A stretch of 64,000 nt of DNA from the NCBI GenBank assembly GCA_034190875.2, contig CM067345.1, positions 30,381,345 to 30,445,344 on the forward strand, given 5' to 3'. Below, in pieces: positions 31,901 through 37,900 of this stretch (the stretch's first letter is position 1; every line of letters starts with the position of its first letter). The translations under genes were made by a program, and so were the position numbers. Source of the DNA: Urechis unicinctus (Eukaryota > Annelida > Polychaeta > Xenopneusta > Urechidae). A model generated the notes under the pieces. That model worked only from the letters and a program-made list of their open reading frames with translations, had not been told where the DNA came from and searched no databases.

Positions 31901-34900
31901 TCGCGGGATAAAGCAACCCGGATATGATTTCATCGCCTCTATCACGCGCCTACCGTGACAGGAATTAGCGGGGGCCGATAGACCCCGGTAGCGGGCGTTG
32001 ATTTGGGCATCATTTCGTTTGTGGACACATTTAATCACAAAGTTATATAACAGTTATTATTGCCTTGAAAAGGTCGACCTGTTACTATGCGACAAGGGGT
32101 ATTTTTCTTCATGAGAGAGGAATACAACAGATCACGTGACAGTGAGCCGGGCCATTAATCGCGTATCAATAGTCATATACGTACGTACGCAAGGCAATAT
32201 TCGTTTGATGGCGATGCCTACCATCGCCGCTTGTTGGGACCCATTCGTCAATCAGATGCACTAAACACTTATCATTAATGCCTTCACCTCATTGTACAGC
32301 CATTATCTTGGAACCTACATATCCGACCATGTTTATAACCATATGAGTCAGTCTTACCTGAACGGGTATATTTAGTGAACGCATGCAGAGAACATGGCTT
32401 GGCAAGCCTATTCGTACGACGGACAAATGTGTGTGAGTGATAATTTGAGTGCGACTGCCATTCTGATTTCCTACCTATAACGGGCACTTAGGTGATATCG
32501 GCTACCGTCCTCTGACGGGCATTAAAACAGCGGCCAATAGCAGGCACTGAGCCACCTGCTTACAGCGACCTCTTGAGTGATGTCAGGCATCCACCTATAG
32601 CGGACAATTGAGTGACATCAGAAACCTGCCTATAGCGGGCACTAAGACACCTGAATAAAGAGGGAAATTGAGTGTCATTAAACACCTAGCTATTGCGGGC
32701 ACTTGAGGGACATCGAACTCATGCATGTAGCGGGCACCTTATTCCAGATTTTGGATTTGATTTGAATATGTGTATTTCACGATTGCTGAGAGTCTTATTT
32801 TAAGATAGGTGCTAATTTGGTATCGGGTGAATTTTGATATCTCTTGAAGCATCCATGATATATCGATTTGAGAAGCAGCGCTGTGTTTGGAGGCTGATGG
32901 GGACTCATAGCCATGACACACGGGGCGGTCAGAAACACTCTAGCAATAACACACTTACTTCGTTTCCCCCTACAACCATATTTACATTTAAACCCATTAA
33001 TCCAAACGTCACGTGATTTACCTGGGGGTCATGTGACTCACAAAAGCAGACGACTTCCGACGCCCAGTACGAAACCAGTATCTTTGACGCGGTAGGCATG
33101 AACGCTGATGGGGTGGTTTTGATGCGGCTTAATGGTTATAACCTGTTCGAGAGGATGTGCTCGGAGCGTGCTGCCACCTGCAGGCGAAAGCAGGTTGTCT
33201 GGAGTGCATTTTTAATTTGTCAAATATGTACCACAATTATCTTAATGGAGTCAAAATATATAAAAGGAGCCGATATCTCAGCTATTTCAGTTGGCATCGA
33301 AGTCTGCGGCTAGCGGAAGGAGAACAGAGCGAACCCAGCCGCGGAGCCTATCCTGGGAGACTTGGAGACATCTGTTGTGATATCACACACTAAGCAAAAG
33401 ACGACGGCGCAAGAAAACTCGCATACGGCATCCATCCAGAAATTGTATACTAAACTAGTTTGTGTTTGTTTGCGCTAGTCTAGTGTACAGTTCATGGAGT
33501 GATATCGTACAACCAGCGCCACTGACGGAGCCACTTCCAAGTTTTTGTATTATACCTTTGGTACGACGGTTAGCGCGCAGTAACGCAGAATTTCTATTGT
33601 TTATTTAATTCGTAAACTTCAGTAATGTTTGAGTTTATTCCCTTCGCAGCCGACAAGGGTGTAAAGGGGTGGGGGGTGGGGGGGGTGGTGTGTTGGTTAG
33701 TGGGGGTAGGGGGGATAGGGGGGGAGAGGTGTGGATAGGGGGTTTCACGTGGTTGTCGGTTGTTGAGGAGGATGGGTGGGAGGGTGGGGGCGTGGTTACG
33801 CGTGGTTGTTGTTTGTTGGGCAGTCATCTCGTTTTTACGCTTCTACGACAGGGCATTCGGACAAAAAACGTGGATTAATACCTCTGGATAATTAATTAAT
33901 ACCACGAAATAAATCATATATGTTGCGGGACTATGCATTCATTATTCCGCAAGATAAATGAACGATCTCGCGAAATTATTTCGCGAGATTATTCATTTCC
34001 CAGGTTGGCTGAATGAATTATCTCACGGAAAAATTGCATTTCTTCTGCGTGCTTATTCCGCGTGAGTGACCTCGGTCGCTTTTATGTGTACGCACCGTTG
34101 AATGTTTGATCTGTTTAAATCGTGTTTCTTTAAAGGTGCATTCCATCATAAGTCATAACAATTCTGTTGTGAAAAACATTCATGGATTAATTGGCCGCTT
34201 CGCAAGCTGTAGTTTATCTCGCAAGGCAGTGATACTGATTTTGAACCGGAATCAGGGCCGTGTGTTGTCAATGCGTTGTTAAGACGCTAGCGATGCTGTT
34301 CACACTCTTAATGTAATCTAGTCAACTTGACTAACTTGGCTAGTCATATTGACTGTCCACCAAACGACTAATGTGTTAGTCAATTTCACTAATGCAGTTA
34401 GTCAAATATTGATTAGTCAAAATGACTAATCTACCTAGTCAAGTAAAGAGTGGTCAGTATGACTAATCTATTAGTCACTATGACTATCTCATTAGTCACA
34501 TTGACTATAGCGTAAGTAGTACGATGACTATTGTACGGGATTAGTCAGACCGACTAGAAGATTTGGTCAGTTTGACTATGAATGAAGGTCAGTTTGACTA
34601 TGATTAAAGGTCGAACCAGTGAAAGAACCAGTGTAAAAACAAGTCAGACAACACAATACGCAAAACAAGTAGACTTTATTGTACATAAACACACACATGC
34701 ATGCCCTTGTTAATACTAGCCCTGACACAAAGAAGCTTCGCATCAACTGGGTCTTTAGCCTCATCATGAACGACCAGCATCACCTTCTGTACATAACGAA
34801 ACGTCTTTTTGGTCGATAGGTGGTAAGGCACATAAACACATAAATGGCGGTCATCAGCATGCCCATGGCCATGACCTCTGTTATATCCACAGCTTCTCCA

Positions 34901-37900
34901 ACAGATGTTATTGCTGGTGTCTTGCTGCGTTGCGACATTCTAAAACACATAGTAGACTTATGGTTGAAGCTAAGCACTCATTAGTACTGATACCAGCAAT
35001 GGTACACGACAATACATACACAAATACAGAAAACTATTCAATATTCTCACCTAATAGTACGGAGGCGATTGTCAGAAAATTTCAACTGAAGATTTCCAAT
35101 TTCCTGCAGCAACTGGTTAAAGAACCGCCGCAAAGGTCAAGCTTCCGGTATGACGCGGCGCGCATCTGTGGTTATGTAACCAACCCGTGTGATCCGCGCA
35201 TCGCGGTCTCCCAACAAAGAGAAGATAACGCTCTCAGGTGGGCAAATTGACTAGGTAACTAGTCAAATAACACCTGACCAGCCTTGCTATTCATTGTGAC
35301 TATATATACGGAGGCGATTGTCAGAAAATTACAACTGAAGATTTCCAATTTCCTGCAGCAACTGGTTAAAGAACCGCCGCAAAGGTCAAGCTTCCGGTAT
35401 GACGCGGCGCGCATCTGTGGTTATGTAACCAACCCGTGTGATCCGCGCATCGCGGTCTCCCAACAAAGAGAAGATAACGCTCTCAGGGTGGGCAAATTGA
35501 CTAGGTAACTAGTCAAATAACACCTGACCAGCCTTGCTAGTCATTGTGACTATGTTGCTTAGTCGATTTGACCATGTGATTAGTCGTTACAGAGTTTGAC
35601 TAACTTCGATAGCTGGGTGACCAGGTTGGCTAGTCATTTTGACTAGATTGGGTTAAGAGTGCAGCGTCCGTGCGCTAGGGCGCGCGTTGTTGTCGTGTGA
35701 TTCTATAGCTAGGTTGGGGAAGATGATCGAGAGAACATTGACCAAGAGAGAAGGACTATGAGAGTAGAGGGCAAGCAGATCAACTTCCCAGACCCCAAAA
35801 AACTCACTGCATGACAGACAGACATGTTAAGTGTGCCTCATATCACATAAGCTTACTGCCTTATATATCTAATGACCACTTGCAACTGGAATTCAAGCTG
35901 GGTGGCATCATTCGAAAGTGAAAGGGGATACCAGCTTTTCCTCAACAGACATATTCACGCAGTTGAAAACAACCCATTTAATCACATTTGCTCCTAGAGG
36001 GGAATGGGTGCAATGGCAATCAACCTGTACCACAAATTATGGTGATTTTCAATTCCCGCGTTGTATTGCCGAATACGCATTTACTAATCACTGAAGTTCT
36101 TGTAGCTCAGCGCAAGTATTTGAGTGCCTTCAGATATGATTGTGGGCCTGGTTTTTTTAGCCTTCTCTCTTCAACATTTGATGGGGAAAAAGCCGATGCT
36201 TTGCTATGCGGTGCCTCACCACATACGCCACAAGACGAGAGCTATATCGCCCAGTAACGATTTGTCGTTTTTCGAAAATGATTTTATGTTGTCTCGGTAT
36301 ATCTCGGCATGCGGTCTCCCACATACGTGCCCAGTATTATTTTCGTTAAACAGTTAGTTAAACAGATATGCAAACGGCACGGACAAGGCTTAGCAGTTTC
36401 GCATGGCTGTGGCAGCTAGTTGTGGCGGGATATTTGTCGGCGAATGAAAACCTGATTGTTTTTTCTTGGTCCACGCGAGAAATGTGCCGTGCGACATCGT
36501 TGTCAAAAACGTGTAATTATTCCGCGAGAGAATAATGTGGTTAATTTATTCCGCGAGATAAATAATATTTCTTGCGGGATTCGTGAATATGACCCGAATC
36601 CCCCGTCTCGGGCTGTTCTCCGCTGATGTGCACACTTATCAACGAATACTTGCTTTGGATGGGTTGACGATAACGCTTGATGCCCAAAGCGGGTTGTGAG
36701 TGGTGCTTTGAGCGGTACAGGCCATCAGAATTTCTGGGTACGTGAGATAGACACATTCAGGACCCTTTAAATAAGTGTACAACAGTACGGGTACAATAGT
36801 TAAGGTACAATAGTTAGGGTACAGTCGAAAGGATACAGCAGGGCCCGTATCTAGGTCTTTAACTGGGTGGGTGCGTTTTCCGCTGAAGTGGAACATCACC
36901 ACGATAAGCCAGTTATATATATATATATATATATATATATATATATATATATATATATATATATATATATATATATATATATATATATATATATATATAT
37001 ATATATATATATATATATATATATATATATATATATATGGCCTTAAGATTAAAACGAGGCGATAGTGATAAGTTATCATCAATTTTGTACTTTTTTGGAG
37101 ACCCGTTTTGAGAGCGTGAATCCCTGAGTATTAATAAATGATGTCGCATGAAATAAGCGCTGGTATCTATATGCTACGTGTATGGATAAATATGAAAATT
37201 AAGGAAAATATATTCTATTGCCGACGCATTATTTTGCTGTAGTCTTGATTTTTGTATGTTCAGTATGCACAAAACGCTAATGGAAAATCGTCAAAATCTT
37301 GGAAAATAATCAATACATTCAGCTGTGGAGCGAGATATACCCACCGGAAACAAACGTATTTATCCGAACTTTAAAAAGTGCAGTTTGGCGGAAACAAATG
37401 ATCAAGAAGTTTATTTAGTCCGGAATACATCTACGCTGATATTTAACCAATGTCAACCGAAACTCACTCGCCTGTTTTGACCTCTTTTGTGATGGAAAAA
37501 AAAAATGGCCACAATATTTGTGCTGCTCGTCTTCTCACCTCCCGCCTTAGCCCTACAAGACGTCCGAGTAGACGTCTTACTCTGTAAACGACGCAATGTT
37601 ATACATTTTGGGATCGATTCAGACAACTACCAAACATACCCTAGTGATGGAGTTTTAGAATGCAATGATGTTCACGGACAATATTATCTCTTTGTGACGT
37701 GGGATTTCATCCATGGTTATAGTTCGATAAATTTGGAAGTGGTAGAAAGTCCGAAACACAGCAACATGTATGTTTTCAAGTTCAAGACCACGTACATCGC
37801 GCATGCTCAGAATGACGTGAACCATCGACGACTATTGCTGCCTGCGTCAGAACTCGATAAGATACAGCAGATTTTTATTCAAAGTGAGTCAACGTGCTTC

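Follow-up and report, generated by a model that had tools for sequence, protein, structure and literature searches.

A probable CACTA-type deletion derivative with phased palindrome arrays in the genome of Urechis unicinctus

The dSpm elements are deletion derivatives of the plant En-Spm transposons. Plant CACTA/En-Spm elements have inverted ends starting with CACT, subterminal repeats that are bound by the protein TnpA, many non-autonomous copies and, in the long copies, a Transposase_21-type protein (PMC8195511). In animals, related systems include the TRC elements. SmTRC1 of Schistosoma mansoni is described as a multi-exon long element with a Transposase_21-type transposase and 2-bp target duplications in 7 of 14 copies; the animal TRC ends described with it start with CCC, and the word "subterminal" does not appear in that text (PMC1636069). 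Spongebob, a CACTA element with non-autonomous animal copies and a 2-bp target duplication, has an end that starts with CCC and short forms of 433-496 bp, and the available part of its description includes no phased palindrome arrays (PMC4298943). Here we describe an element in a 64,000-nucleotide stretch of the Urechis unicinctus genome (GenBank assembly GCA_034190875.2, contig CM067345.1, positions 30,381,345 to 30,445,344 of the forward strand; hereafter the window). The element, at positions 34303-35661 of the window, is very probably a non-autonomous derivative, formed by internal deletion, of a longer Transposase_21-type element of the CACTA/En-Spm (animal TRC) kind.

The element shares with the plant CACTA elements the CACT-starting inverted ends, the subterminal repeats, the numerous non-autonomous copies and, probably, the Transposase_21-type protein of the long copies. 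It differs from them in its animal host, in a C instead of an A at the fifth base, in a 2-bp instead of a 3-bp duplication and in its subterminal unit, a 15-bp palindrome repeated mostly in 21-22-bp steps. It has the 2-bp duplication and, probably, the type of transposase and a multi-exon long element in common with SmTRC1, and the 2-bp duplication and the existence of non-autonomous animal copies in common with Spongebob, whereas both of these start with CCC and the element described here with CACTC. Three features of CACTA/En-Spm elements were found: a short target duplication (2 bp in animal TRC elements, 3 bp in plants; 2 bp in 33 of 34 copies here), subterminal repeats near both ends, and non-autonomous copies that probably arose by internal deletion. 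The repeated ends, the 2-bp duplications and the long relatives at three loci therefore point to a dSpm-like deletion derivative. Support for a non-autonomous family of the CACTA superfamily (TRC-like) is good but not complete. The original prediction could name no family described with such a layout. For the family as such this is true as far as the literature searched shows, since we recognised no published description of it there; the layout itself is that of a CACTA/En-Spm deletion derivative, a kind already known.

That the element is mobile was part of the original prediction and is borne out by its copies. We searched the host assembly (1.19 Gb, 926 contigs) with the element's own coordinates and scored the best-matching 40 of 601 candidates. 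All 40 matched, the window itself at 100% and the other 39 at 96-97%. A 23-position pattern of the end was found 262 + 268 = 530 times genome-wide, and the reversed pattern, used as a control, 0 + 0 times. An absence of other copies with these ends, which would have told against the original prediction, is thereby contradicted. About 212 ends (110 + 102) are preceded by TA; this is some 40% of the ends, an approximate share because the pattern was here one base shorter at its inner end. We inspected 100 of the 530 ends, and 100 of the 110 and 100 of the 102 preceded by TA. Both 9-base ends are exact in 34 of the 40 copies fetched, and the remaining six were left out of the duplication count. 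For 33 of the 34, the flanking dinucleotides are identical, as expected of a 2-bp duplication (TA in 14 of these, CA/CA at the window copy). The sole exception (L003, TT/AA) lies within a repetitive stretch. One copy (L018) is inserted in a 24-bp tandem repeat. Its empty site (the joined flanks less one copy of the duplication) differs from the neighbouring repeat units at one position in 26, which makes the duplication there two bases long. The flanks are unrelated among the 28 copies compared. Apart from the window copy, the exact-end copies are 1095-1105 bp long, typically 1104 bp. The 50 copies that we aligned lie at a median Kimura two-parameter (K2P) distance of 1.1% from their consensus (0.27-3.9%) and 2.3% from each other; because 40 of them were picked as best matches, this sample biases the age estimate toward young, and the real spread of divergence is wider. 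Ten copies with longer open frames (L041-L050), considered as a distinct kind, proved to be the same element. The stretch at 34303-35661 is thus, with near certainty, a mobile element, and the genome holds several hundred copies of this non-autonomous DNA transposon, the window copy included. Elsewhere, six CCC ends of the element lie at C4:44001157-44005583 in the same orientation, 878-882 bp apart, forming a tandem array that includes a transposon end.

Two other readings of the target site were tried and rejected. An 8-bp direct repeat, GCGTTGTT, is found 22 bp outside both ends of the window copy and could be read as a duplication of hAT or P type. Other copies have 2-bp duplications and end at CACTC, and we take the 8-bp match to be due to chance. 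When the inverted repeat was extended outward, the score was not significant (27% of shuffles did as well). A piggyBac-like element with TTAA ends does not fit either, since the inverted repeat continues past the TTAA to CACTC in copies with unrelated flanks.

The inverted ends and the arms packed with TGACTA and TAGTCA are both as originally predicted: the terminal inverted repeats span 44 nt each with 75% complementarity, and 27 of the 52 exact occurrences of the two motifs in the window fall inside the element. CACTCTTAA and its complement occur once each in the window. Close inspection showed that the unit of the arms is a 15-bp palindrome, TAGTCA-N3-TGACTA. When the consensus was scanned for TAGTCA-Nx-TGACTA with x from 0 to 8, 13 units were found at x = 3 (at most 2 mismatches) and 0 to 4 at each other spacing. 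Allowing up to 4 mismatches in 12, there are 18 units in the arms, some of them overlapping, whereas 300 letter shuffles yielded 2.4 on average and never more than 7. In the left arm, seven of the ten steps between palindromes measure 21-22 bp and three 36-37 bp; the steps of the right arm are less regular. Palindromes that recur about every two helical turns close to both ends would be expected of a cooperative binding-site array. We predict that the palindromes are probably transposase-binding sites, and the transposon's own protein would be the likely one to bind them.

The window copy is longer than the others owing to a recent direct duplication of about 250 bp, which the original prediction had noticed. 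The two duplication copies are near-identical (few mismatches and a 1-nt indel). The duplication is not a trait of the element as a whole, as it is absent from the other 33 exact-end copies. Another copy (L050) carries its own tandem duplication of 192 bp, which starts at most about 3 bases from the start of the window duplication on the consensus (about 106 from the CCC end). The common start may mark a site, adjoining an arm motif, at which both copies broke or slipped.

The coding history of the element emerged from diverged copies. A search of the genome for palindrome pairs with wider spacing gave 43 places, 24 of them with a second, distinct type of sequence. At three places of this second type (L058-L060) there is a sequence related to the inner part and the left arm of the element (L058: 70% over consensus positions 504-1076). 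In L059 and L060, the peptide TSVGEAVD...MLMAAIYV, which in the window copy forms the middle of a 52-codon minus-strand frame, runs on into VPY...TFRYVQ.VML...DPIDAKRLC..ASINKAMY, a continuation that lies in another frame in the window family. The frame of L058 is broken further on. We searched the genome with the protein of the L059 frame and scored 150 of 757 candidates. This search retrieved diverged copies in which the whole frame is open, and 20 were fetched. In seven of the 20 the frame starts at the splice acceptor with (N/D)V(A/V)T; its length is 98-129 codons, and a typical frame begins NVATQHDTSINSLPPLL. Neither Pfam nor PDB gave a match for the L059 frame, and Pfam gave two weak hits, below the cut-off, for the corresponding exon of L062. 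As separate observations, L058-L060 sit in a repeat of at least about 4 kb, about 95% identical among the three, in which an old, truncated relative of the element is embedded; a frame resembling the 147-codon frame of the long element described below occurs in L060 as well; and five second-type palindrome pairs at C14:11283195-11298288 are spaced at multiples of about 1.89 kb, a tandem array holding a piece of a related element.

In order to assess selection on this frame, we compared 16 of the 23 diverged copies (L058-L080) over 81 codon columns, leaving out L058 (frameshifted) and six window-type copies (L071, L072, L073, L075, L078 and L079). The median ratio of non-synonymous to synonymous divergence (dN/dS) is 0.27 (interquartile range 0.19-0.64; 116 of 120 pairs with dS >0.1, the pairs not being independent). 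The pooled ratio of non-synonymous to synonymous differences (pN/pS) comes to 0.40 for this frame. It is 1.18 and 1.09 for the two remaining sense frames and 0.98, 0.60 and 1.28 for those on the antisense strand, where the frame with 0.60 shares its third positions with the sense frame. Judging from these codon patterns, the true frame of the diverged copies is a last exon of about 100 codons that has been under purifying selection. In the 14 diverged copies compared at the acceptor, TTTTAG predominates (Table 1), with GTTTAG in one copy and two copies not alignable. The acceptor is an old feature, predicted to belong to the last exon of a longer transposon gene. The donor region aligns well in only three diverged copies. 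The exon of the window family is damaged: sequence is lost after the first dozen codons, and there is a one-base shift further on.

Longer relatives connect this exon with a transposase. Seven loci (L061, L062, L064, L065, L066, L074 and L080) have 260-616 bp of upstream sequence that is common to various pairs of them and that the window family lacks. At C14:27.96 Mb (L082 and L062), the order is an 826-codon open frame, two shorter open frames (143 and 147 codons), the last exon, an AATAAA, the left arm and TTAAGAGTG. Judging by the residues, the start of the 826-codon frame holds two C2H2-like zinc fingers. Ahead of this frame, L082 carries a piece that corresponds to the other arm and the CpG-rich block of the window family (84% over consensus positions 76-226 and 85% over 263-315). 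From a CACTCTT at position 1789 of L082 to the right end it measures 8477 bp, with an uncertain left limit. A genome search gave no other stop-free close copy of the 826-aa frame. A decayed copy at C1:14.289-14.291 Mb (79-91% identity, in pieces) is followed by the last exon at C1:14.2948 Mb and by an exact end pattern after TA at C1:14.2954 Mb, 97% identical over the last 35 nt. At C14:15.53 Mb, the transposase frame is internally deleted (only residues 2-48 and 745-826 are left) and is again followed by the last exon (L061) and the same end. Because the exon and the same end lie downstream of the frame at three loci, the arm and the last exon are tied to the transposase. The short copies share with L082/L062 the left arm, the acceptor and the last exon, along with some of the other arm and of the CpG block; the transposase region is missing from them. 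Over 679 aa, the 826-aa frame has 30% identity with the frame of another locus, L053 (E 3e-97), and this L053 frame scored 28.0 bits against Transposase_21 in one search (cut-off 28.6) and 29.4 bits in another. A PDB search with the 826-aa frame gave no match. L053 and L054, the best two of seven Transposase_21 loci, were considered as the partner of the short copies and rejected, since they are without the element's ends and arrays. At about 6.3-6.7 kb of the stretch L081 there is a 137-codon frame that by eye resembles a THAP zinc finger, perhaps another transposon nested in the long copy.

Several observations weigh against a CACTA-type deletion derivative. The ends begin with CACTC, not CACTA or CACTG (four of the five CACTA bases), nor with the CCC of animal TRC elements. 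The outermost 75 nt of the other end of L082 are without a match and its flanking dinucleotides differ, and the stretch fetched around the C1 copy shows no trace of the other element end. The link to Transposase_21 runs through L053, as the 826-aa frame itself reaches only 12 bits (E 0.12). Among the ends listed (300 entries in two partly overlapping lists) we recognised 95 pairs, 92 of them spanning 747-1223 bp and three spanning 1957, 2742 and 3180 bp; none exceeds 3.2 kb, and no long copy with two intact ends is among them. Three of the 20 diverged copies (L064, L065 and L067) show only 1-4 TGACTA or TAGTCA motifs in the stretch. Finally, the codon comparison drew on copies that were retrieved by protein similarity and chosen because their frames are open, a selection that lowers dN; as the control frames come from the same alignment, this bias is unlikely to be the whole of the effect. 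Several pairs or places of ends were also followed up and rejected. The pairs of 2742 and 3180 bp (L055 and L056) are the same element with inserted sequence and have no frame of transposase length, a candidate place beside a TA-preceded end (L057) is the same element with other sequence inserted, and at C1:42.05/42.07 Mb (L051, L052) the inverted ends proved to be an old, truncated end within a segment that is duplicated. The insertion in L057 (C6:52421600-52431100) is a Ty3/gypsy-like long terminal repeat retroelement, judging from its frames.

The original prediction saw in the centre of the element a micro-gene, with a TTTTAG acceptor, a GTGAGA donor-like site, an AATAAA and a 52-codon frame, and all of these are present at the positions claimed. 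An element that carries a functional 52-residue membrane micro-protein as cargo would fit the acceptor, ATG and AATAAA in their places and the lack of inner stops in 146 of 150 scored copies (from 444 candidates). As the copies differ from the consensus by only about 1%, an open 52-codon frame is expected. Its length is also not beyond chance: when the consensus element was put through 1000 dinucleotide shuffles, the longest ATG frame had a mean of 61 codons, and 67% of the shuffles reached 52. Across the 50 aligned copies, the frame shows 38 non-synonymous and 14 synonymous variants and 3 involving stops; for variants shared by at least two copies the counts are 17 and 4, with 1 at the stop. 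These proportions are neutral, the expectation from the rest of the element being 3.0 non-synonymous to 1 synonymous. The stop is lost in 12 of the 50 copies and the start in 3. Pfam and PDB searches with the 52-codon frame gave no match. No conservation of the frame was found among the copies, and the diverged copies conserve a different, longer frame, of which the MSQ start and the tail of the 52-codon frame are out-of-frame readings. What looked like a micro-gene is a frameshifted patchwork of the longer conserved exon, so that a 52-codon micro-protein gene is highly improbable, and we give very little credence to the cargo reading. There is likewise a very slim chance that the short copies make the 52-residue hydrophobic peptide from the CpG-rich, promoter-like block that they share, and that this truncated, frameshifted product holds the transposase in check, either as a dominant repressor or as a self-limiting regulator; if this were true, selection on the element itself would have favoured the frameshift. 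A 166-codon open frame on the plus strand (0.4% of shuffles reach 155 codons) was tried as a gene and rejected, because its non-synonymous and synonymous variants are in neutral proportion and it has 9 stop variants against 9.2 expected. The original prediction also offered a micro-gene locus whose flanks turned into palindromic arrays in place, with no mobility. The 530 end matches, the unrelated flanks of 28 copies and the target duplications contradict this, and leave it next to no probability.

A host origin of the last exon is quite unlikely. In such a Pack-type element, the exon of about 100 codons would have been captured from a host gene, and the failure of the exon to match any transposon-type Pfam or PDB entry, together with the few arm motifs of L064, L065 and L067, agrees with this. 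At three loci the exon is flanked by the transposase frame on one side and by the arm on the other, which argues against capture, as does the upstream sequence that L064 and L065 share with long copies. The search with the L059 frame scored 150 of 757 candidates, and a host locus may be among these candidates. The arms had also been described as foldback-like. Inverted motifs are there, and repeat-rich inverted arms are a likeness to FB and Rehavkus elements; the arms are not one continuous foldback, since the long inverted match is only 44 nt at 75% and the rest consists of separate 15-bp palindromes. FB-type elements make target duplications of about 9 bp, not 2 bp, and the transposase of the long relatives is of another kind. 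The chance that long tandem-repeat arms of FB or Rehavkus type are the mobile unit is practically negligible.

A CACTA-type deletion derivative suggests the following mechanism. A transposase or accessory protein would bind the TAGTCA-N3-TGACTA palindromes in both arms, the 21-22-bp steps would place these sites on one face of the helix, and the bound protein would pair the two CACTCTTAA ends. The element would be moved in trans by cut-and-paste, often into TA. The long element would encode the Transposase_21-type transposase and further exons, and the short form would be its internal deletion. The apparent micro-gene would be what remains of the transposon gene: a CpG-rich 5' block, the acceptor of the last intron, a frameshifted last exon and a poly(A)-type signal. 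Because movement would need only the ends and the arms, the 52-codon frame would be irrelevant to the short copies.

The features of the window copy are collected in Table 1. Elsewhere in the window, we found an exon of an aromatic amino acid hydroxylase at 44641-45057 on the plus strand (best PDB match tyrosine 3-monooxygenase, E 3.5e-33), and a long interspersed nuclear element (LINE) at 18871-23308 on the plus strand, with a weakly PHD-like first open reading frame (ORF1) and endonuclease and reverse transcriptase frames. Long minisatellites are abundant (67 rows, some overlapping; for instance 30386-31450, 47230-48962, 52139-52903 and 61747-62769). Scans of the window with Rfam (gathering threshold) and for tRNAs were empty.

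Table 1. Features of the element copy in the window, numbered from the first nucleotide of the window
Feature	Position	Strand	Remark
Left copy of target site duplication, CA	34301..34302		context CA/CACTC...GAGTG/CA
Whole element, non-autonomous, probably CACTA-type, 1359 bp	34303..35661
Left terminal inverted repeat, begins CACTCTTAA	34303..34346	+	end pattern recurs genome-wide
Left subterminal array of TAGTCA-N3-TGACTA palindromes	34319..34594		consensus 17-292; Tandem Repeats Finder periods 21, 22, 37
AATAAA, poly(A)-type signal of putative ancestral transposon gene	34675..34680	-	kept at the matching place in 6/14 diverged copies
Putative ancestral last exon, second part	34705..34836	-	frame differs from 52-codon frame
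52-codon frame, frameshifted relic	34780..34938	-
Putative ancestral last exon, first part	34837..34908	-	only stretch of the 52-codon frame in the ancestral frame
TTTTAG, predicted splice acceptor of last exon	34940..34945	-	kept in 11/14 diverged copies
GTGAGA, donor-like site	35045..35050	-	GT kept in L067 and L076; lost in L070
Tandem duplication, first copy, 249 bp	35058..35306		holds CpG-rich 5' block
Tandem duplication, second copy	35307..35556		also holds CpG-rich 5' block
Right subterminal array, same palindromes, less regular spacing	35489..35645		consensus 932-1088
Right terminal inverted repeat, terminates TTAAGAGTG	35618..35661	-
Right copy of target site duplication, CA	35662..35663

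The locus is a cautionary case: within a repeat, an open frame accompanied by a splice acceptor and a poly(A)-type signal mimicked a micro-gene, and comparison with diverged copies revealed the frame that was truly selected. A single assembly holds what is very probably an animal CACTA-type family, in which one long relative keeps its transposase frame open, other long relatives are decayed or deleted, and the short copies number several hundred. Those short copies that match best lie about 1% from their consensus. With these parts side by side, it can be tested whether a rare helper has recently mobilised the element. The phasing of the palindrome arrays leads to the prediction of a binding site and of a same-face geometry, both of which are open to direct checks.

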